Part shown: piece by piece, positions 9,645 to 28,508 of the stretch
Numbering within the stretch: position 1 is the stretch's first letter
Layout of the letters: each line of letters opens with the position of its first letter
DNA from: a virus
Direction: 5' to 3' (one strand)
IMG/VR virus record: IMGVR_UViG_3300037587_000782
Span: 1-30,407 of that record
DNA length: 30,407 nt
Notes under the pieces: generated by a model
What the model saw: only the letters and a program-made list of their open reading frames with translations
Told to the model about the DNA's origin: nothing
Database searches by the model: none
Position numbers and translations under genes: made by a program

Positions 9645-10049
9645 CTATGGAAACGGCTTTTCCCACAGCCGAATCTTTACTCTGTAGGGGGCTGCGAAAG
9701 TCGTGTTTTCGTCGGCAACCTGGCAACTCAACCGAAGCCCGGTCCCAAAGGTCCAGGGGAGCGAGTAACCCTGCCAATAGCCTCCGGGCAAGATCGAACC
9801 CGAGCTGATACTTTGGCCGATATTGCACATTTTCACAACCTCAAGCCCCGCCGGTCCCGTAGCGATGTTCAGTTTAATCTGCGAGCCCCCAAGGTTCAAA
9901 AACGCTCCGATGCCGTGGTAGAAGATCCACAGCCAACCCGAGGTCCGAGCCGTTGAGGCAATCAACAGGCCAAAAGCCCCGAACACATTTGGCGCCAGGC
10001 CGCTAGTGACAGCTACAACCGGGCTGGCTTCATTCAGGTAATTCGACAT
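9645..10049 (-). CDS. Beta-domain structural protein, paralogue 3 of a cluster (134 aa)
   Basis: The start at 10049 (MSNYLNEAS) is chosen over a longer possibility at 10169 because it forms a TAATG junction with the preceding stop and the longer version would overlap that gene by 120 bp. The protein carries the signature shared with its two upstream neighbours: FGAFGLLIASTARTSGWLWI, then LNIATGPAGLEV, then a late strand region (RLSCQVADENTT). It is a single-domain version of the ~110-residue unit. Similar IASTxxxxxxWLW / IATGxAGxEV domains are, from memory, common in environmental phage virion proteins, probably decoration, fibre or receptor-binding parts. The function is not proven. Confidence 0.75.
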   Translation of the reverse strand: MSNYLNEASPVVAVTSGLAPNVFGAFGLLIASTARTSGWLWIFYHGIGAFLNLGGSQIKLNIATGPAGLEVVKMCNIGQSISSGSILPGGYWQGYSLPWTFGTGLRLSCQVADENTTFAAPYRVKIRLWEKPFP

Positions 10050-16632: not shown

Positions 16633-17339
16633 TGTGGTTCCTCCTTACCTGGGACAGACACATTGGGCTTCCCGTCGAAAGCGGGATAGCAGTCGTCCAC
16701 CAGGCTATACGCAAAATCGTCATCTGCCTTCTTTTTCTTTTCCTCTCGGTCTTTCAGGGCTTGCTTGCGCTCCAAGTCGGTGATGCTGCGCTGATACTGG
16801 AAAGCCCGGATGACAGTTTCGACCACATGAGGTTGAAGCTCCTGGTAGGTGCCATCGGGGTTCTCGAAACAGTAGCAAGCCTCATACTCTCCCCGTGAGG
16901 GATACGGCCCCATGGCCGCGAATTCTATGCCGTTGAATACCTCTGTGGTGTAGTCGTACCAATCGGCTTTGGAGCCAAAGGTTTCAGGCCCGAACCACCT
17001 TTCCAAGTGGAACCGATCAAAGGGCATATTCTTCGGCTCCCACCTGTACTCCCCAACTGTCCTGTACCAATTTCCTGAAGAATCAACATCGTCCCACTCA
17101 CCGGCAATTATGGTCAGTCTTGACCATCCCCAAACGACCCGGAAATTCGGTTCCCCAAGAAGATTCAGACCCCCGACTATGGCAGCGAGGGCCTGAATCT
17201 CTCGAGGAACGTCTTTGATTTCCCTGCCCGTCCGAATCCTCAGACCCTCGGCATCGTAGAAACGCTCCCTATCGCCCATAAAGCGAGTAAGGTGCGATCT
17301 CGTCGCGGGATCCTTGGAACGTATTTGCAGATCAACCAA
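16629..17339 (-). CDS. Unknown protein after the major capsid gene (236 aa, probable TTG start)
   Basis: The frame opens just after an in-frame TGA at 17343-17345. The only candidate starts are TTG at 17339, a CTG shortly after, or ATG at 17279 (residue 21). TTG is preferred: a weak GGGTGA stretch precedes it, while the ATG has no ribosome site. The protein contains a Trp/Tyr-rich central part (NFRVVWGWSRLTIIAGEW, NWYRTVGEYRWEP, HLERWFGPETF) and ends with a charged helix of Lys/Glu/Asp. It shares an ATGA junction with the next gene. No family recognised; a minor virion or assembly role is inferred from position between capsid and adaptor genes. Confidence 0.6.
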   Translation of the reverse strand: MVDLQIRSKDPATRSHLTRFMGDRERFYDAEGLRIRTGREIKDVPREIQALAAIVGGLNLLGEPNFRVVWGWSRLTIIAGEWDDVDSSGNWYRTVGEYRWEPKNMPFDRFHLERWFGPETFGSKADWYDYTTEVFNGIEFAAMGPYPSRGEYEACYCFENPDGTYQELQPHVVETVIRAFQYQRSITDLERKQALKDREEKKKKADDDFAYSLVDDCYPAFDGKPNVSVPGKEEPQ

Positions 17340-17356: not shown

Positions 17357-18610
17357 TCACGGATAACCCGTGGGCTTCGCCAGATTCTCGATGAAAGCAC
17401 CAACACGGGGGCTGTCGGACCACACCTGGAAACTGGTCACGATGTAGAAGATCATCGCGGCATCCAACCCACCATCTGTCGAGTTGTAGAGAGGGTAAAC
17501 GGTCTGCCCTCCAACTTCGTACAGATCAATGTCCTTCGATACCGCCCGGCCCCAATGGGCTAGAGCGATAAAGTCGATCCGCTCGGGATTCCAATGGACA
17601 TTGGCATGGATCGGGATTCCACTCATCGTCTTTTTCCCGTCGAAGAATAGATCCACACCTTGTCGGTTACTGGAAGTCTTGATGATCTCTGAAATCGTGA
17701 TCGCCAAAGCCTCGTAGGCGTCCTCTTGCTCCACGTTCATGCAAGCATAGAGGCGATTCCGCATCAGGATCTCTCCACCAAGGGCCTTGCGGATCTTGTT
17801 GAGAGCCAGGCGAATGACACCCGTGGTCAGGGCCGCGCTAAGAGCGTCCACGGCCGGGGTGCGAATCTCAGGAAAGGTTGCCCTATCCAAATTCAGCCAC
17901 GTTCCGGTAGCGGAGTCGTCCTGGTGAAACGGAACACCGAAAATGCCCACAGGAGCCGGAGCATCTACACCATCGACAACGATCAGATCGGTAGCAATCG
18001 TTCCTACGGGGAGCGCGTCAATCGTGATCTGCGCGTTCTCGTAGTCGATAGATTCAATCTCCAAGGCCCCACGATTGACAGTCAGAGCGGCGTTGAACAC
18101 CTGAACCGTCTGATTGTCGTACATGAGATTTGCCAGGTTGGGAGTCCCTAGCGTTAGGACCGGATCCGCTTCAACCGTGATGTTCGCCAAAACGGCATCG
18201 CCGGCAGTCTGCAAATAACGATCCAGGAAGTTTCGGAATTGGGCCATGCAGTTGGCGGTTTCCCGCGTCACGGCATTGGCAATAGCCTTTTCCCGACTGT
18301 TGGTTGAGTATTCAATCCGCTTTGTCAGCTCACACGCGAACTTAAAGTCCAACGGCGCCAACTGCGCTACTTCATACCGTGTACCGGAACCACGGCCCAA
18401 TGCTCCACCGTCAAAAGACGTTTGGCCGGCCTTACCGCCTGGCTTCATTTGGAGCGGGACACGCATATTCCGGCTTGAAACTTGCTCAACATCGCCACGC
18501 CGGGTCAGCATCGAATAGAACGTACCTTCCCGCTCATAGAGCAAGGGAAGCCGCTCACGCACTTTTTCGAGCTGCAGCGCAACGGTATCGGCATTTACCA
18601 TCTGAGGCAT
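17357..18610 (-). CDS. Major capsid protein, HK97-fold (417 aa)
   Basis: It follows an acidic scaffold gene and has the feel of environmental podoviral coat proteins. The N-terminal arm is helical (ALQLEKVRERLPLLYE). The next block reads RNMRVPLQMKPGGKAG and TSFDGGALGRGSGTRYEVAQ. Then comes a long helix (NSREKAIANAVTRETANCMAQFRNFLD). The C-terminal domain contains DLYEVGGQTVYPLYNSTDGG and AMIFYIVTSFQVWSDSPR. The length suits a HK97-type coat without protease-removed delta domain. The start has a GGAGGG ribosome site 8 nt upstream, and the spacing from the scaffold stop is 34 nt. No separate protease or frameshifted longer form is apparent; the next gene's frame is closed by a stop between the two. 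Confidence 0.86.
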   Translation of the reverse strand: MPQMVNADTVALQLEKVRERLPLLYEREGTFYSMLTRRGDVEQVSSRNMRVPLQMKPGGKAGQTSFDGGALGRGSGTRYEVAQLAPLDFKFACELTKRIEYSTNSREKAIANAVTRETANCMAQFRNFLDRYLQTAGDAVLANITVEADPVLTLGTPNLANLMYDNQTVQVFNAALTVNRGALEIESIDYENAQITIDALPVGTIATDLIVVDGVDAPAPVGIFGVPFHQDDSATGTWLNLDRATFPEIRTPAVDALSAALTTGVIRLALNKIRKALGGEILMRNRLYACMNVEQEDAYEALAITISEIIKTSSNRQGVDLFFDGKKTMSGIPIHANVHWNPERIDFIALAHWGRAVSKDIDLYEVGGQTVYPLYNSTDGGLDAAMIFYIVTSFQVWSDSPRVGAFIENLAKPTGYP

Positions 18611-18644: not shown

Positions 18645-19880
18645 CTACTTCGTCGGGATCTCGGGAGCTGTCAACAGTTCAACGTCAGACATTTTGCTGT
18701 AATCGACTTTATCAGCCGTGGGCAAAGCGCCGGACGGTTGCCCTGGTGGGCCTCCGGTTCCAACATCAGACCGGGAGATTCGCTGCCTTTCACGTTGCTG
18801 TTTACTTTGGGCAAGGTAGGATCCGGTCCACTCTTTGATGACGCTACGCGAAGTTTCTCCAAGGAGATTCTTCGCCCTGTTCACCACAATTCCAACGATG
18901 GATTCCAAATGCCTTTGCCCACGGTTCCCGTTGCGGAAAGCTCGGTTGAGCTGCACTTTGAGGGTGGGATTCTCGCTGACCTTGATACGAATTTCCTGGT
19001 CAATATCGTCAATGATCCGTTGCTTTGCGCCCTTTGGAACGGCGCTATCCTTCAAGACTTTATCAACGTGAGTCGTGATGATGTTTCGTACCTGGCTGTC
19101 GGTTGTTTCCAACGCAGCCTGTTTGAATCCGTTGAGTTCCTTACTGGCTAAAGCCTGTTCTCTCTCTTTCAGGTTGCTCTCTCTCAGGTCGCCCTGGGGA
19201 GCTGCGCGTCCATTGTACTGTTGCCCATTCAGCCGACGCCATAGGACGTCTACGGCCGCGACCAAGTTCTTGTCTTGCGACTTCTCAGCCTGATCGTGGA
19301 AATGGTGCAGCACATTTTCCGCTGCCTGGGTGTGAAGGTTATGGTAGGCCTGTTGGTCCTGTCCGTAAACGGCTTGCCAGAATTCAGTGGCACCTTCCGG
19401 GCCTTCGATGGCCTTTTCAAAGGCTTCCTCAAAGGGCTCGATCCGGGAGGCTATGTCGAGCATTTCCCTGGCACTCTCGATGCCATTAGGAAGTAGCTCT
19501 TTAACCTCACGGGCCTCTGCCACTGTTGGGAAAACCTCTCGGAAGGCCTGATCCCGGAAGTACAGATCCCGGAGCTTCGGCCCTACGCCTTCTTGTTTGA
19601 ACAGAGCTTTAATTTCTTCAGGAACTTCCCCCTCCGCAAAGGGTTCCTCGACTTCTTCCTCACCCTCACCGTCAGGCTTCGCAGCCTTGGGCTCGGGTTC
19701 TTCTTCCTCACCGGCCCCCGTTTCTCCCTCATCAGGCACCTGGGGTTCTGGTGTTTCAAGGGGCTTTTCCCCTTGCTCGGTGGGTTTGGCTTCTGGCTCG
19801 GCTGGCGTATCCGGGCCGGCTAACAAAGCCTCATCTGATTCGATTCCCGCACCTGGAACCGTTCCACTCGGTTGTCCCAT
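18645..19880 (-). CDS. Capsid scaffolding protein (411 aa)
   Basis: The N-terminal ~100 residues are Pro/Glu-rich and very acidic (for example ETGAGEEEEPEPKAA), typical of podoviral scaffolds. The remainder is mostly helical: LRDLYFRDQAFREVF, EPFEEAFEKAIEG, a coiled-coil-like middle with ESNLKEREQALASKEL, and a basic region near the C-terminus (SKQQRERQRISRS). The gene is immediately upstream of the major capsid gene, the usual place. The start at 19880 has an AAGGA site (GAGAAGGAATC before the ATG). It is the first gene after the 210-bp gap with a promoter-like sequence. No protease domain is visible, so it is likely a scaffold recycled or degraded without self-cleavage. Confidence 0.82.
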   Translation of the reverse strand: MGQPSGTVPGAGIESDEALLAGPDTPAEPEAKPTEQGEKPLETPEPQVPDEGETGAGEEEEPEPKAAKPDGEGEEEVEEPFAEGEVPEEIKALFKQEGVGPKLRDLYFRDQAFREVFPTVAEAREVKELLPNGIESAREMLDIASRIEPFEEAFEKAIEGPEGATEFWQAVYGQDQQAYHNLHTQAAENVLHHFHDQAEKSQDKNLVAAVDVLWRRLNGQQYNGRAAPQGDLRESNLKEREQALASKELNGFKQAALETTDSQVRNIITTHVDKVLKDSAVPKGAKQRIIDDIDQEIRIKVSENPTLKVQLNRAFRNGNRGQRHLESIVGIVVNRAKNLLGETSRSVIKEWTGSYLAQSKQQRERQRISRSDVGTGGPPGQPSGALPTADKVDYSKMSDVELLTAPEIPTK

Positions 19881-20055
19881 GATTCCTTCTCTCCCGACTT
19901 TTCCGCTTTCGCGGCGGGGTGTTCGGATCCCCGTGAGTTACAGAGTATGGGTTTATGTTTGGCCTGATCGCCAGGGGGGTCAGAGATAGGTTTGGTCGTC
20001 CAATCTTTCTTTCCCTGGCGACCAAACCAAATCAATAGCCGCTAGTGACGGCTAT
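19881..20055 (-). ncRNA. Structured 5' leader upstream of the scaffold-capsid genes
   Basis: This is a non-coding stretch in an otherwise gapless gene array. On the transcribed strand it can form: (a) a 7-bp hairpin, ATAGCCG/CGGCTAT, arms 20049-20055 and 20035-20041; (b) a perfect 10-bp stem, GGTTTGGTCG/CGACCAAACC, arms 20019-20028 and 19989-19998; (c) a 9-bp pairing between 20013-20021 and 19968-19976 that uses the loop and first bases of (b), giving either a pseudoknot or a competing fold; (d) a 5-bp stem CGGGG/CCCCG, arms 19929-19933 and 19915-19919; and (e) a CCGC-GAAA-GCGG tetraloop hairpin at 19903-19914 close to the scaffold ribosome site. This suggests translational or transcript-stability control of capsid genes. 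No known riboswitch class is recognised. Confidence 0.55.
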
Positions 20056-20059
20056 GGGG

Positions 20060-20089
20060 ATTGTAAACACAGAGGACTGATGAAAACAA
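20060..20089 (-). promoter_or_regulatory. Candidate sigma70-type promoter for the scaffold-capsid genes
   Basis: On the minus strand, TACAAT (20060-20065; five of six matches to TATAAT) is preceded by TTGTTT (20084-20089; weak match to TTGACA) with an 18-nt spacer. Transcription would begin near 20052-20055, at the first hairpin of the leader. It lies directly after the stop codon of the 147-aa gene, in the longest non-coding gap of the window. Inferred from sequence only; a phage-specific polymerase could use other signals. Confidence 0.45.
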
Positions 20090-20903: not shown

Positions 20904-23570
20904 TCAAAAGGTGTTCACTTCGTAAGTATTGGCATCGGGCTCGTTCACATCGACGCCGGTTTCTGCGTGAGCCCCGCCGCGCCGGTCCCTCGCGTGGCCC
21001 TTGCTCGTAATGGGCGTGATTTGGAAGCCGGGGTCGGGAAGGGCTATCAGGTCGGCTACGGCTGTCACCAAGGCAGCTCCCGGAATCGTCACCGTGATTT
21101 CCTCAAGCAGAGTAATGTCGTATTGGTTCCTCGGTATGAGGGTGATGGTGACAAGGGTATCGCTTGTTCTCACCACGGCTCCCAACGGGATATTCGGCAC
21201 GATTTCGGCGTTCCATCCGGTAGCCTCTGATTGGGCAGAAACAAGTCCGTCGATGATGGCCTGTCTTTGAGCTTCAAACGCGCCACCTGTAGCAACCCAA
21301 GTGTCGTCAGTCAGGAAAAGCAAGATCGTCCTGCCCCCGGCCCTTATTTGCCCTTCCGTTGAGGAAAAGGCGATGGTCCCGCCCACGATGGCCGTGGGAA
21401 TCTGATTCACGTTGAACGTGGGAGTGGCCACAATCGGGTCGGGAGTGTCGGTAATGGCACTCGCCGGGATTGTCGCCGTGATCGTTTCAGGAGTCGTGAT
21501 GTTGTAGGCCGCTGCCGCGCTGAAGGTGATCGTCACCACAGTTCCCGAAGTCCTCACCACGGCTCCGACAACTTCCTTGTCCCGCACCTCTGCGTTCCAC
21601 CCGGTAGCTTCTGACTGAGCCGAAGTGAGCCCATCAAGGATGGCCTGGCGCACAGCGTCGAAAGTAGGGCCGACTGAAACCCATGAATCTCCGGTCAAGG
21701 TGAGAATGAGGGTTTGCCCTCCGTTCACGATTTGCAGCTCCAGGGACGATGGAACGGTTGTCCCGCTGATTGCTACGGCAGTCGGATCCACGGTGAACGT
21801 GGGGCTGGCAATTACGGGCTGGCTGGCCTCCACAAGAGCCGACGCCGGCACCGTGACCGTGATGACTTCCTGGGCTGTGATGTTGTAGAGAGCCTGGGCC
21901 GTAAGGGTGATGGTGACTTTGGTTGCGCTTGTCCGAATCACGGCTGAAGTAGGCAGCTTATCCCTGACTTCGTTGTTCCATCCGGTCAGCTCTGCTTGAG
22001 CCGAATCCAAACCGTCGATGATGGCCTGACGCACACCATCAAACTCCATCCCATTCGGTTGCCAGGTATCGCCAACGAGGTCGATGATGATGGTTTTCGC
22101 GCCCAAGACAACATCAGCCTCGACTATGCCGGCGGTGGCCGTTCCACTGACCGCTGCCGTGGGATCCACCTTAATGTCGAAGGTCGGAGTCGCCACATAG
22201 GGGCCTCCAGTGACCATTACACTGGCCGGCATCGTCCCGGTGATTGTTTCGTCAGCCGTTATATCGTAAGCCGCCTGGGCGTCCAGGGTTATCGTCACAG
22301 TCACCGGATCCGTCAGAACGACCCCTATGGTGCCTTGCTTGTCCCTGACTTCGTTATTCCAGCCCAAAACCTCCACTTGAGCGGAAGTGAGCCCGTCGAT
22401 AATCGCCTGTCTTTCAGTGTCCGTAAACGGCGTTTGCCAGGTGTCTTTGTTGGAAGTGAGGACGAGCGTTCTGCCCCCGGCTACTATGTCGGCTTCAAAA
22501 TCTTGAGGGACCACATCGCCGGCCAGGCTGACACCCTGCGGAATGAAAATCACGGGAAAGGTCGGTATGGCGACGAGGGTTTGGCCCCCTTTATTCGCAC
22601 TCGCCGGGAAAGTGACTTCGATTTCCTCATCAGCGGTAAGGAGATAGGCGGCAGAAGCGGGAAAGTCGATTTTCGCAACTTTGGCTGCGGCCCGAGTCAC
22701 ATCGGTCACGCTCAACTTGTCGCGCACTTCGTTGTTCCAGCCAAGCAGCTCGGATTGGAAAGAAGTAATCCCGTCAATTATGGCTTGCCTGGATCCGTCA
22801 AACGCGGCCCCGGCGTTTAGCAATTCTTCGTCGGTCAGGGTGATAAGGAGAAATTTGCCTCCATCCACAATATCGAATTCATCAACGGGCGTTCCCACGC
22901 CGACAACAATGGTCCCGCCAGCCGCAGCGGAGCCAAGTGGGGTGATCGCCAGGGTGAAGGCTTGCCATTCCTCCGCGCCAGCTTGGGTATAGGCCGGGGG
23001 ATTCTCGGCAGCGGCAGCAACATTTTTGGTGGCAATACCGATGGTGGCCCCGGAAAACTGAGAAACAGTGACGGAATTTGTGTATCCAGAGGGAAAGGCG
23101 GTGATGGCGAAGTCGTCCTTCTCGTAACCGCACATCGCCATATACATATAATCTTTGGTCAGACCAACAGGAATGAGATTGTCGGGATCGGCGTTCACGC
23201 TATTGCCGCTGGCACCGGCAGACACTTCGACAGCAGCAGCGGCGCTGGCGTTGCTGATCCGGTACATGGCGTGAGCTGCGCGCTCGGCATCGACGCTTGT
23301 GACGGTGATGTTGAGGCCTTCGGTCCCGTCAGAAATCTTGTACGCTATGCCGATACTCGCGCCAGCAGCCCCGCCCGTGGTCTTGTCCTTGATCTCCGTG
23401 AAACCGTCAGACCATCCCGAGAATTGGCCGGCGGGGCTTGTGAGGTTTTCCAGGGCGATGAAGGCAATCAACATATCGCCAGCCACGACACCGGCGGGGG
23501 TGCTGATCGTGTGCGCGGTGAGGCTTGAGGAAGTTGTCGATGTGGTGGCAGTTTCAAAAACTGGAAACAC
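20904..23570 (-). CDS. Large virion protein with five tandem Ig-like/beta repeats (888 aa, GTG start)
   Basis: Residues ~1-215 form a distinct N-terminal domain (HTISTPAGVVAGDMLIAFIA, SDGFTEIKDKTTGG, IGIAYKISDG) of a type seen in phage structural proteins. Then come five units of ~127 residues starting near residues 235, 363, 488, 615 and 743. Each has a GG-x-T strand, a helix RQAIIDGLTSAQ, the invariant GWN(N/A)E motif (Trp at 278, 404, 531, 658 and 786), the strand VVRTS-x-TVTITL, and IPAS/VPAS ending in ATPTF. The last unit is followed by a short tail with RDRRGG. The gene starts at GTG 23570, overlapping the upstream stop (TAGTG). Length and repeats suit an outer decoration protein, fibre or adhesin exposed on the virion. 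No enzyme motif is visible. Confidence 0.75.
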   Translation of the reverse strand: MFPVFETATTSTTSSSLTAHTISTPAGVVAGDMLIAFIALENLTSPAGQFSGWSDGFTEIKDKTTGGAAGASIGIAYKISDGTEGLNITVTSVDAERAAHAMYRISNASAAAAVEVSAGASGNSVNADPDNLIPVGLTKDYMYMAMCGYEKDDFAITAFPSGYTNSVTVSQFSGATIGIATKNVAAAAENPPAYTQAGAEEWQAFTLAITPLGSAAAGGTIVVGVGTPVDEFDIVDGGKFLLITLTDEELLNAGAAFDGSRQAIIDGITSFQSELLGWNNEVRDKLSVTDVTRAAAKVAKIDFPASAAYLLTADEEIEVTFPASANKGGQTLVAIPTFPVIFIPQGVSLAGDVVPQDFEADIVAGGRTLVLTSNKDTWQTPFTDTERQAIIDGLTSAQVEVLGWNNEVRDKQGTIGVVLTDPVTVTITLDAQAAYDITADETITGTMPASVMVTGGPYVATPTFDIKVDPTAAVSGTATAGIVEADVVLGAKTIIIDLVGDTWQPNGMEFDGVRQAIIDGLDSAQAELTGWNNEVRDKLPTSAVIRTSATKVTITLTAQALYNITAQEVITVTVPASALVEASQPVIASPTFTVDPTAVAISGTTVPSSLELQIVNGGQTLILTLTGDSWVSVGPTFDAVRQAILDGLTSAQSEATGWNAEVRDKEVVGAVVRTSGTVVTITFSAAAAYNITTPETITATIPASAITDTPDPIVATPTFNVNQIPTAIVGGTIAFSSTEGQIRAGGRTILLFLTDDTWVATGGAFEAQRQAIIDGLVSAQSEATGWNAEIVPNIPLGAVVRTSDTLVTITLIPRNQYDITLLEEITVTIPGAALVTAVADLIALPDPGFQITPITSKGHARDRRGGAHAETGVDVNEPDANTYEVNTF
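21012..22868 (-). repeat. Five tandem ~380-bp coding repeats
   Basis: The in-frame units span about 22485-22868, 22110-22484, 21729-22109, 21345-21728 and 21012-21344 (the last shortened). Similarity persists at DNA level: on the plus strand a GTCGATGATGGCCTG-like block near the helix and a GTTCCA(C/T)CC-like block at GWN recur at each unit. Such repeats can change in number by recombination. Confidence 0.85.
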
Positions 23571-23917: not shown

Positions 23918-24426
23918 TATTCCCCTATTACGGGATGGGGGTGAGGGTGGATTCTCGGCCCCGAAAAGAAGTTGGCTGTCACGACATTCTCATCCCCGGT
24001 GATGATGATGACCACCTGTGGGGCTGGCCTGGGCTCTCCGGGTTTGGACGGGGCATCGGGGTTGAGCCAACGGATCGTCAGCGAGTCCGAGAAGATGCTT
24101 TCATTCCCGCTCGTATTGCGCGCTGTCACGCGATAGACGTAATCCTGGGTGACGAACACCACGGGGCCGGGCTCGGTCCACTGGATTGGATCCGGTCCCT
24201 GCGCCACAGTGGCCACTTCAACGAAGGCAGGGCAGTTTGGGGGAGCTGGCACCGGATCGGTGCAATCGGCATCAGCTCGGTAGACGCCGTAATCGACCAT
24301 ATCGGACTCGGTGTTGGCGTCCCAATAGATCGGGAGCCCAAAGGTGTGATCGACGGTCTGCCCGTAGGCGGTCACTCCCAAAAGAATCAAGAGGATGATG
24401 ATGACTACTAAGGTTCCTCGGGTCAT
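23917..24426 (-). CDS. Signal-peptide protein with one Fn3-like domain (169 aa)
   Basis: The start is placed at 24426 (MTRGTLVV...) because it overlaps the portal stop as ATGA; a longer version from 24654 would run 229 bp into the portal gene. Residues ~5-20 are a strongly hydrophobic helix ending in AYGQ, which looks like a Sec signal peptide or a membrane anchor. Residues ~24-120 fit a fibronectin type III fold (IYWDANTESDMVDYGVYR, PIQWTEPG, DYVYRVTARNTSGNES). Two Cys near 54 and 64 could form a disulfide in the periplasm. The C-terminus is Pro/His-rich (HPHPHPVIGE). Export is unusual for a gene inside a packaging block: it may act at the host envelope, or the hydrophobic helix may anchor it in the virion. 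Role unknown. Confidence 0.68.
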   Translation of the reverse strand: MTRGTLVVIIILLILLGVTAYGQTVDHTFGLPIYWDANTESDMVDYGVYRADADCTDPVPAPPNCPAFVEVATVAQGPDPIQWTEPGPVVFVTQDYVYRVTARNTSGNESIFSDSLTIRWLNPDAPSKPGEPRPAPQVVIIITGDENVVTANFFSGPRIHPHPHPVIGE

Positions 24427-26774
24427 TTTTTCCCCTTCGCTGCCGGTTTCGGTTTCGGCTTTTCCTTCTCTATTTGGAGCTTTCCGGCTGCTTCGGCCTG
24501 GGCCATGGCCGCTGTCATAATCAACTGTTTCCGCTCCGCTTGCTGTTGCGCCATTGAGATAGCTTCCTGGTGCTGCATCGCGTGAGCCTGGACATTCATA
24601 AAGCCCATCGGGTTCTGTTCCTTGGCCTTCTGGCCCTCGGATGAATTGACCCACTGTGCCACGATGGCCAACTCAACTTCGTGAGAATCGAACATTCCAA
24701 TTTCCACGGACGACTCGAATCCACCTTCCTCTGTTTCGATAGGCATTTCCTCGAGAAGCTGAATGATCTCGCGCCACTGTTTGTCCCGGCTCGTATCGCC
24801 GGGAATCGTCAAATCGTCCAGCCCGAGCAAATCCTTGAGGATCTTCATGTTCTCGGGATGCTGTAAAACCCCTGCGATTTCCTCGTTGCCGGATTGCAGT
24901 AACTCCATGAGGGTTCGGCGCTTTTGCACCCAAGTTTCGGGGAACTGTTCTTCCGTTTCCGAGTAGACAACCACGGCTCCCTGAAGGTCATCCAGGCGAA
25001 TCAAGCGACTGTCGAATTCCTGGCCAATCGCCTTCATTGGAATTTCAACATCTTCGTTCCTTTCGTCGCCGTAGATCCGCACTCCCTTGACCATGCAGTT
25101 GTCCCAAAAAGACTTCATGGCGCGCCAGAAGATGCCTTGCCTACCTAACGCCTGGTCCCTCGACATAGCGTATCCTGATGCTGTATCAATATTGGCCGCT
25201 GAACCACCCATAAGTGATGGAAATGCACCAACTTGGAACTGTCCCATGGGTCCAGCAAGATCGTTGATATATCGGTAGGTTTCAGCCGCCAGGGGCGTAG
25301 GTTGAGGCTGAAAAAAAGCGTCCCGGACCCTACCCGTGGGCGGTGGTGTCACCGGGTAGTGACTCCCAGGTTCGGCGGTGGTGTCCTCGATGGCATCGAA
25401 ATCCAGGACGCTATCATCGGCGTATATCGGAGGAACGCCGAATTCGATGTTTTCTACGACCAAATTGTTCAGGGTGTTGTACCGCTCTTGAATGGAAATG
25501 AGGGCCGTTCCGATGGCCGGCCGGTTCTGACCATCACCGGGCATGACATTCATCACCGTCCAGTAGTCATCCATGTTCTCATCCCGGGCCTCGGCAAACT
25601 GATCGGCCGCGAAAGCGCAGTACACGCCATTCGGGAAAAGGCGGTACAGTTCGGAACGGATATTTTCGTCATCTATTCCCTCGAAAACAAACGGGCGCAG
25701 CCAGCAACGGTCAAAGGTAATCAGGTTGGCCGATGGTGTGCCGGCTTCGTCGTAGATGCCGCTGTAGTGGAGCCGCAGCCGCACCTGGCGCTCGTAAGTA
25801 TCCTCTCCACCTGAAGGGGTTTCCTGCGAAATTTTCTCTCGAATGTGGGGGTAGGTCGCCTGAAGTTTCGCCCTGTGAATCTCCGTTGACCAAATCAGAT
25901 AGGGGAATTCGTGTTGCTTGTTGCACCACATGGGGGTGCGTACTTCCAGGGCTCCGAAAACGTCCAGAACCTCCTGGCCCTTCGGGATCCGCTCACTCCC
26001 GGTTTGCTGCGGGACCGTGTAAGGCTGCGGCGACATAAGATCCGTGTCACTCAGGGGGGCTCCGCACTCGGGGCATAGGGCATCGGGCGGTATATCCTGA
26101 AAGGGGGTATTGCCCCCACACTCGGGACAGGAGTAGGCCGCGTCCTCACCGGGGAGCTGGATTTGCTGTTCGGCCATTTCCGGTACGTCCTGATAGCCAA
26201 ACCTCAGACCGTCCTGCACATATCGTATATAGCCGGCCACTTTTCCATCGGTCCAGGCGAAGTACGCCATTCTCTCCAAAAGGGTGCTGGCGTCATTGTT
26301 CCGCTGGATCAGCTTGATAACTTCGGTCCCGATCTTGGCCGTGGTCACATCTTCCGGTTGCTGGCTGGATTGCGGGAAAAGACGGGTTACGGGCTTACTC
26401 TGTGATAACACAGCGATTATGGACAGACCAAAGGCCTGGTAGATGTTCGTCACGAAGCTGTATCTTGGCATCTGATCCGAGATAAAATCGCGGTTGAAAA
26501 GGGTTTCAAACGGGAATCGCCACTCCTGATCCGACTCGGCCCACCAAATGTTTTGAACGCCCTTCCAATACTCCCTGGCTTGCTTCGCCTTCTTCACTTC
26601 CTCGCGCCTGGCCGACAGCGTTTCATCCTTCATTTCCGCAATCAGGGACCGCAGAGAGGACTTGATTTCGTCGGGCAGATTTTCCATGAACCGCCCGTAA
26701 CCGGGGCCGCTCAGTGGAGCGTCAAGGGGTCCATCTTCGAGGCCTAGAGGGTGAGCTGCTGTTGTGAGTCCCAT
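24423..26774 (-). CDS. Portal protein with inserted zinc ribbon (783 aa)
   Basis: The protein lies downstream of TerL and upstream of the scaffold and capsid, where podoviral portals are found, and has the typical length (~700-800 aa). Residues ~50-130 contain the helical clip-like start (REYWKGVQNIWWAE, NRDFISDQMPRYSF). The core includes VENIEFGVPPIYADDSVLDFD and a long helical stem region (GYAMSRDQALGRQGIFWRAM). An insertion near 210-240 has CPEC (216-219) and CPEC (234-237), a four-Cys zinc ribbon. The C-terminus is Ala/Gln-rich coiled coil ending in a Lys/Pro tail. The ATG at 26774 directly follows the preceding stop (TAAATG). Portal assignment is good by order and composition; I do not know the job of the zinc ribbon. 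Confidence 0.8.
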   Translation of the reverse strand: MGLTTAAHPLGLEDGPLDAPLSGPGYGRFMENLPDEIKSSLRSLIAEMKDETLSARREEVKKAKQAREYWKGVQNIWWAESDQEWRFPFETLFNRDFISDQMPRYSFVTNIYQAFGLSIIAVLSQSKPVTRLFPQSSQQPEDVTTAKIGTEVIKLIQRNNDASTLLERMAYFAWTDGKVAGYIRYVQDGLRFGYQDVPEMAEQQIQLPGEDAAYSCPECGGNTPFQDIPPDALCPECGAPLSDTDLMSPQPYTVPQQTGSERIPKGQEVLDVFGALEVRTPMWCNKQHEFPYLIWSTEIHRAKLQATYPHIREKISQETPSGGEDTYERQVRLRLHYSGIYDEAGTPSANLITFDRCWLRPFVFEGIDDENIRSELYRLFPNGVYCAFAADQFAEARDENMDDYWTVMNVMPGDGQNRPAIGTALISIQERYNTLNNLVVENIEFGVPPIYADDSVLDFDAIEDTTAEPGSHYPVTPPPTGRVRDAFFQPQPTPLAAETYRYINDLAGPMGQFQVGAFPSLMGGSAANIDTASGYAMSRDQALGRQGIFWRAMKSFWDNCMVKGVRIYGDERNEDVEIPMKAIGQEFDSRLIRLDDLQGAVVVYSETEEQFPETWVQKRRTLMELLQSGNEEIAGVLQHPENMKILKDLLGLDDLTIPGDTSRDKQWREIIQLLEEMPIETEEGGFESSVEIGMFDSHEVELAIVAQWVNSSEGQKAKEQNPMGFMNVQAHAMQHQEAISMAQQQAERKQLIMTAAMAQAEAAGKLQIEKEKPKPKPAAKGKK

Positions 26775-27062: not shown

Positions 27063-27249
27063 GTTTCCTCCCAAAGAGTTTTCTTTTCTTTTTTCGGGTG
27101 TTGGCCCTCTCGGGCAGCTCGTACATGGCATGGCCTTTCATCTTGCCGACGATCTCCTTGGCTAGCGCCGGCGGCATCCCGTTCTTCTTCCGGCCATGCC
27201 CGGACAGGACCGCATGGGCGTACCTGACCTGGGCTCTCGACTCAGGCAT
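27055..27249 (-). CDS. Small basic protein, DUF3008-like in outline (64 aa)
   Basis: The N-terminal pattern PESRAQVRYAHAVLSGHG followed by a helix PALAKEIVGKMKGHAMYEL recalls small phage proteins starting with (A/S)RAQ, such as the DUF3008 group, whose role I do not know. The C-terminus is a strongly basic RKKKRKLFGRKHG tail. It begins directly after the previous stop (TAGATG). Similarity is weak and not confirmed by a search. Confidence 0.55.
   Translation of the reverse strand: MPESRAQVRYAHAVLSGHGRKKNGMPPALAKEIVGKMKGHAMYELPERANTRKKKRKLFGRKHG
27065..27072 (-). promoter_or_regulatory. Ribosome binding site deciding the 27062 start
   Basis: The coding strand reads GGGAGGAA, followed by AC and the ATG at 27062. 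This perfect site rules out the longer reading that begins at 27131. Confidence 0.8.
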
Positions 27250-28359: not shown

Positions 28360-28420
28360 GGCGTTTCCTCCATTGGATTAGTTGCCGCCACTAGCGTTGA
28401 ACGATTTGAACCTTGGTTTT

Positions 28421-28455
28421 GCGCCCTCCGAAAAAGCATGAAATCCGAAGGGCGC
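28421..28455 (-). other. Inverted repeat in the gap after TerL
   Basis: Arms GCGCCCT (28421-28427) and AGGGCGC (28449-28455) give a 7-bp stem with a 21-nt loop. The transcribed strand continues with AAAACC rather than a U-run, so this is not a canonical Rho-independent terminator. The rest of the 149-bp gap (28360-28508) holds no convincing gene. Confidence 0.4.
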
Positions 28456-28508
28456 GACATGGAAAACGTCAAAACCGATCCGAGGCTATCACGGGATCTC
28501 TGACAGAA

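Follow-up and report, generated by a model that had tools for sequence, protein, structure and literature searches.

A candidate strand-exchange leader RNA ahead of the scaffold and capsid genes in an uncultivated phage lineage

The way in which tailed phages proportion portal, scaffold and capsid proteins is known mainly from a few models, and to our knowledge control of the scaffold-capsid message at the RNA level is poorly documented. The scaffolding protein of P22 autoregulates post-transcriptionally. The start region of the lambda cIII message is an equilibrium of two alternative folds. In hok/sok and CopA/CopT, a hairpin loop finds its complement in a distant or separate stretch, and coordinated change keeps the match. 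RNase III cleavage of the lambda cIII message frees its ribosome site (PMC5371410). In the expression platforms of strand-exchange riboswitches, one switching strand has two exclusive partners and changes between them by way of a toehold and branch migration (PMC10907184).

The locus described here lies in a 30,407-nt stretch of viral DNA (IMGVR_UViG_3300037587_000782, positions 1-30,407), which was analyzed as a whole and is called the window. It is of a known kind, a phage mRNA leader with exclusive folds. In this family both folds are held by compensation and a predicted covarying contact leads to a second late leader; no Rfam family matched the leader at the curated score. Like the lambda cIII region, where the alternative folds affect translation, it is a phage mRNA leader with alternative folds, but 80-170 nt separate its exchanging helices from the start downstream, and no common pairing to the ribosome site was found. 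With the strand-exchange riboswitches it shares one switching strand with two exclusive partners and a toehold, whereas a recognizable aptamer is absent from it. As in hok/sok and CopA/CopT, the complementarity of its hairpin P1 (M1:M2, see below) is kept by coordinated change; unlike in those systems, where the partners overlap on opposite strands, the two elements stand in the leaders of two late units that share a strand and are 8.3 kb apart. If a scaffold gene were controlled post-transcriptionally as in P22, a site such as this leader is where the control would act. No description of the leader family was found in a few searches of the open-access literature; this is weak evidence of absence, with subscription journals mostly outside the coverage.

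Gene context and homologues of the leader

The long genes of the window lie on the minus strand; they include terminase, a portal-like gene, scaffold and capsid, and the leader occupies the gap ahead of the scaffold-like gene (Table 1). A coding function of the gap was rejected: its frames are interrupted by stops and by non-triplet indels between homologues, and it contains no ATG. The first-pass annotation had called it the only long gap in the gene array. It is the longest, but stretches of 149 nt (28360-28508) and 118 nt (27132-27249) also separate open reading frames. The same annotation had placed scaffold and capsid genes after the gap. For the capsid this was borne out by PHROG 14242, on which the assignment rests; the structure model of the capsid itself was unusable (pLDDT 28). 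The 411-aa gene is called scaffold-like on account of its position, its composition and a structure model that is mostly helical but of modest confidence (pLDDT 56); no family model matched its protein.

Table 1. Positions of the leader elements and of neighboring features in the window
Feature	Position	Strand	Basis or remark
Promoter-like TTGTTT-18-TACAAT	20060..20089	minus	sequence; TTGTTT 20089-20084, TACAAT 20065-20060
Non-coding leader gap	20090-19881	minus	between stop of 147-aa gene and ATG of 411-aa scaffold-like gene
P1 hairpin AGCCG-loop-CGGCU	20037..20053	minus	begins at predicted +1; U-rich stretch follows
M1	20052-20040	minus	5' arm plus loop of P1
Strand A, common switching strand	20013..20031	minus	I1 and I2 inverted repeats; covaries with B and C
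Strand B	19989..19998	minus	perfect 10-bp stem with A 20028-20019
Strand C	19958..19976	minus	competing long helix with A 20031-20013
P4 hairpin CGGGG-AUCCGAACA-CCCCG	19915..19933	minus	alignment A6, pair count; invariant in three phages
P5 hairpin CCGC-GAAA-GCGG	19903..19914	minus	two covarying pairs
Ribosome-binding region GGGAGAGAAGGA	19884..19895	minus	before ATG 19880; nearly invariant
Scaffold-like gene, 411 aa	18645..19880	minus	first gene downstream of leader; ATG at 19880
Major capsid gene	17357..18610	minus	PHROG 14242 major head protein, E 8e-10; downstream of scaffold-like gene
M2, 13 nt complementary to P1 (M1)	28384..28396	minus	24 nt before ATG of gene after terminase
11-bp hairpin GCGCCCUUCGG/UCGGAGGGCGC	28411..28456 (approximate limits)	minus	in leader holding M2

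A capsid search of viral contigs yielded two relatives with capsids 95% and 96% identical to that of the window, L002 (3300009102_000068) and L003 (3300037628_000540). Both carry this gap at the equivalent place, where it is likewise non-coding and directly upstream of the same gene, with 71-77% DNA identity. Among the three phages the final 80 nt before the ATG are 85-91% identical, and the protein encoded upstream of the gap only 43-47%. When viral contigs were searched with patterns for the exact core, the relaxed core and the promoter plus P1, L002 and L003 were the only real homologues; other matches to the relaxed core were without the rest of the leader. Capsid and scaffold profile searches gave no further leader homologues, and no relatives were found in an annotated phage collection by capsid or by DNA. 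Portal and terminase profiles retrieved close kin, on contigs ending before the gap, and a second clade with capsids about 52% identical. The leader is absent from this clade, which has its own scaffold-capsid gap without strong competing helices.

In the second clade, 660-836 nt lie between the scaffold and capsid genes (L020 8237-8898, L024 10163-10824, L026 9929-10764). Close to the start of the capsid gene this stretch contains small hairpins, GUCCGUGAAGGAC and CCGCGC..GCGCGG, and the leader differs from that of the first clade. A further contig, L017 (IMGVR_UViG_3300037628_000575), has terminase and following genes 100% identical to those of the window and continues beyond the right end of the window; it may therefore belong to the same phage. 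L017 and the L003 contig derive from one metagenome. Among the other genes of the window, the 783-aa gene in the portal position and a 245-aa gene overlap by 232 nt in different frames (24423-24654), as they do in the relatives; the 245-aa gene may in fact start further downstream. The 888-aa protein (20904-23570) aligned with its relative in L003 (1357-3744) in two shifted registers, at 73% and 49%, and therefore probably contains internal repeats. No match to this protein was found in L002.

The TACAAT/TTGTTT pair with 18-nt spacing noticed in the first reading of the sequence is present on the minus strand, and the predicted +1 is the A at 20053. All three phages have kept the -10 region CTNTGTGNTTACAATCNCC, the -10 box alone scoring 5/6, and the -35 box is poor (3/6). 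Taken together, the two hexamers stayed below the threshold of 9/12 in a sigma-70 consensus scan, which did not list the leader promoter in any of the three phages. Elsewhere in the window the frequency of the shared -10 motif was not above chance. The promoter ahead of the leader is predicted as a motif only. The three further hairpins reported for the gap were all recovered as P1, P4 and P5, the last being the GAAA-loop hairpin described near the ribosome site. P1 has an invariant stem and a variable loop in the three phages.

Competing helices on a common strand

Strand A can pair with either B or C, giving two mutually exclusive helices that share this strand. The perfect 10-bp stem of the earlier annotation corresponds to A:B. 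The competing pairing is also present, but the 9 bp given for it were too few: A:C comprises 19 contiguous pairs counting G-U (20031-20013 with 19976-19958). Compared with shuffles, MFE z values of -4.8 for the gap and -5.3 from position 20058 were determined. The leader was among the two most structured of 203 sense-strand windows, and its competing-helix score was the highest of 606 windows. This score was reached in 0/1500 shuffles for each of the three phages.

The indels put A, B and C beyond alignment with MAFFT, and the pair counts were therefore taken from an alignment made by hand. Despite differing letters, all compared core pairs were standard in all three phages (10/10 for A:B and 17/17 for A:C). 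The A:B helix is GGTTTGGTCG:CGACCAAACC in the window, GGTCTGACCGCC:GGCGGTCAGACC in L002 and GGGCTTTGGTCA:TGACCAAAGCCC in L003, and it extends to 12 bp in the latter two. The A:C helix is TTTGG..TGGTCGCCAGGG:CCCTGGCGATCA..CCAAA in the window, TTCGG..TGACCGCCGGAGA:TCTCCGGCGGTCA..CCGGG in L002 and TTGGG..TGGTCAGCCAGG:CCTGGTTGACCA..CCCAA in L003. Two-sided changes were observed in three A:B pairs and in several A:C pairs, one of which is three-way (T-A, C-G and G-C across the phages), and the insertions in L003 are matched on both sides of the helices. At one position of A (T/C/T) the partners in B and in C have changed along with it; the neighboring position (G/A/G) retains both partners, once via a wobble pair. 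Compensatory changes in related phages, which had been proposed as a check, are thus present in both competing helices. Beyond the pairing, A, B and C have no conserved letters.

In a neutral simulation with the same number of B and C changes, both helices survived in about 2.5e-6 to 1.6e-4 of the trials, the range being set by the transition bias. Formal covariation statistics are weak, since only three distinct sequences carry the leader. The cells within the helices that depart from Watson-Crick pairing are all G-U in the sense RNA and never C-A. On the opposite strand these cells would read C-A, which indicates that it is the sense RNA that folds, although the cells are few and the argument is weak alone. 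From the comparison of the three phages, the gap very probably encodes a structured RNA under conservation, with two mutually exclusive helices that have both been selected. A pseudoknot or a switch had been suggested for the competing pairings. The switch is retained, and a pseudoknot is less likely than exclusive strand exchange because the A:C pairs traverse the A:B positions, which covary in both helices.

Equilibrium folding of growing transcripts gave an A:B probability of about 1.00 until C was made, and of 0.95 or more for A:C once C appeared, in all three phages. In the complete leader A:C is preferred in the window and L003, and A:B in L002. The return of L002 to A:B is explained by its C, which can pair near the ribosome site. 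Both the maintenance of the two helices and the prefix folding support the switch well as anatomy; a consistent link to the ribosome site is lacking.

The length of A:C (17-19 pairs) and its low primary-sequence conservation would also suit an RNase III processing or stability element, and comparable sites are known in lambda, T7 and T3 messages (PMC5371410). A:C would then be cleaved or protective, separating or stabilizing late messages, and A:B would be a mere folding intermediate. Alone, such an element leaves unexplained that B has kept a perfect match of 10-12 bp to A through independent changes, and we regard it as an unlikely account of the leader.

Complementarity to the leader after the terminase gene

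The gap after the terminase gene (28508-28360) contains M2 and an 11-bp hairpin, and by inspection a promoter-like TTGATT-18-TAGCCT lies upstream of this hairpin. In nine relatives 99/99 cells of the hairpin are paired, with two-sided changes in two pairs. M2 lies 22-24 nt before the next ATG and follows the frame ACG.TAG.G.CGGC in nine relatives, save that L013 has one extra letter. The three positions left free by the frame coincide exactly with the variable positions of M1. Cognate M1 and M2 form 13/13 pairs in all three genomes; in L002 and L003 every pair is Watson-Crick, and in the window one of the 13 is G-U. When M1 and M2 from different genomes among the three are combined, only 10-12/13 pairs form. 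The 42-kb L002 record contains only two exact copies of the 13-mer. For the M1:M2 duplex about -25 kcal/mol was calculated, compared with -6 to -8 for the P1 hairpin.

If G-U pairs are counted as well, it is not unusual for a single genome to give a 13-nt match between two gaps of this kind (31-78/400 shuffles). When only Watson-Crick pairs were counted, the test gave 1/3000 for L002, 3/3000 for L003 and nothing for the window. The chance of the coordinated changes is about 0.7% per comparison if two random changes are made on each side. The match was found post hoc, and it is the same position together with the coordinated changes in three genomes that suggests a real relationship. M1:M2 may be a trans contact between messages, a cis contact in one long transcript or a site on the DNA that a protein recognizes. 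The M1 motif has a third near-copy, GCTGTCACTAGCG, with one mismatch, in a coding region at 10001-10013 on the minus strand, which may be due to chance.

A role of this pairing in antitermination was considered. P1 was scored as terminator-like for the upstream (portal) unit in all three phages, M2 is located in the leader of that same unit, and the M1:M2 duplex is far stronger than the hairpin. M2, made early in the same long transcript, would pair with the 5' arm and loop of P1 and thereby permit read-through into scaffold and capsid. However, the putative terminator is weak (5-bp stem, 5-6 U in 8), and the window has fewer terminator-like hits (1) than the mean of its shuffles (2.6). There is little precedent for pairing across 8.3 kb of nascent RNA, and A:B and A:C would be left unexplained. 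We consider antitermination improbable as the explanation of the locus. Both it and RNase III processing can be compatible with a switch.

The repeats could also act at the DNA level, with A, B, C and M1/M2 as sites for a phage DNA-binding protein or for recombination and their complementarity incidental. B and C are both inverted relatives of A, and M1 and M2 represent one 13-mer in its two orientations, changing in step between genomes. Against this stand the departures within the helices, which are G-U only in the sense RNA, and the nearby GNRA hairpin, which covaries. M1 and M2 are without a common promoter context (partly by inspection), and the gene orientation is the same in every relative fetched. 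Such a DNA function appears very unlikely.

Ribosome-proximal part and proposed mechanism

P4 is invariant, which neither supports nor refutes its stem. The GNRA loop of P5 is kept in the three phages as GAAA, GAGA and GAAA. Masking of the ribosome site by C was tested against 1000 shuffles, of which 488 (window), 57 (L002) and 451 (L003) gave a C:SD duplex at least as good. In L003 the accessibility of the SD was the same in both switch states. Direct masking of the scaffold ribosome site is therefore not supported, the C:SD duplex being no better than shuffled in the window and L003, and it was rejected as a general mechanism.

The near invariance of the 3' part (P4, P5 and the joining letters) would be in line with the aptamer of a small-molecule riboswitch, the more so as the 5' part exchanges strands in the manner of the commonest riboswitch expression platform (PMC10907184). 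In strand-exchange riboswitches, however, the switching strand is shared with the aptamer (PMC10907184), whereas here the three strands are conserved in their pairing only. No Rfam riboswitch reached its score, and scaffold genes are not metabolite-related. The leader was for these reasons not filed as a riboswitch, a classification that we consider highly improbable. The best sub-threshold Rfam match, chrB-a RNA (RF03078), covered P4, P5 and the start codon at the same place in the three phages with 13-16 bits compared with a gathering score of 43.9. It was treated as chance because of the low bits and because this stretch is nearly identical in the three phages, so that the matches are not independent. 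Matches to miRNA families in Rfam were merely long hairpins.

On balance we favor, with some reserve, the reading of the gap as a structured 5' leader of the scaffold-capsid unit that acts as a regulatory strand-exchange switch. Transcription would start at about 20053, and the A:B hairpin would form once B is transcribed. Some 10-30 nt later C would enter at the unpaired 3' end of A, with CCAGGG as the toehold, and displace B, so that the longer A:C helix replaces A:B. Which share of the RNA remains in A:B would depend on a phage or host factor, or on when transcription and ribosome loading occur, and this share would set the translation or stability of the scaffold-capsid message. By analogy with P22, free scaffold protein is a first candidate for the sensed factor. 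The leader of the neighboring portal unit could be another through M1:M2, or the two late units could be tied together by it. Of the earlier proposal that a regulated RNA controls capsid expression, the conserved RNA with competing pairings is supported by the compensatory changes, and regulation of expression is likely but still inferred.

A more far-reaching proposal is that pairing of M2 with P1, together with the timed three-strand switch, couples the portal and scaffold-capsid units and partly sets the portal:scaffold:capsid ratio. We regard this as a speculative and rather doubtful extension. If it were true, this ratio would be set partly by RNA-RNA contacts between messages. The leader together with M1:M2 offers a concrete, testable candidate for RNA-level control of scaffold and capsid in an uncultivated phage lineage. 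Separately, very strong predicted RNA structure (z about -5) was observed at 17058-17207 on the minus strand of the window, within the gene that follows the capsid gene.
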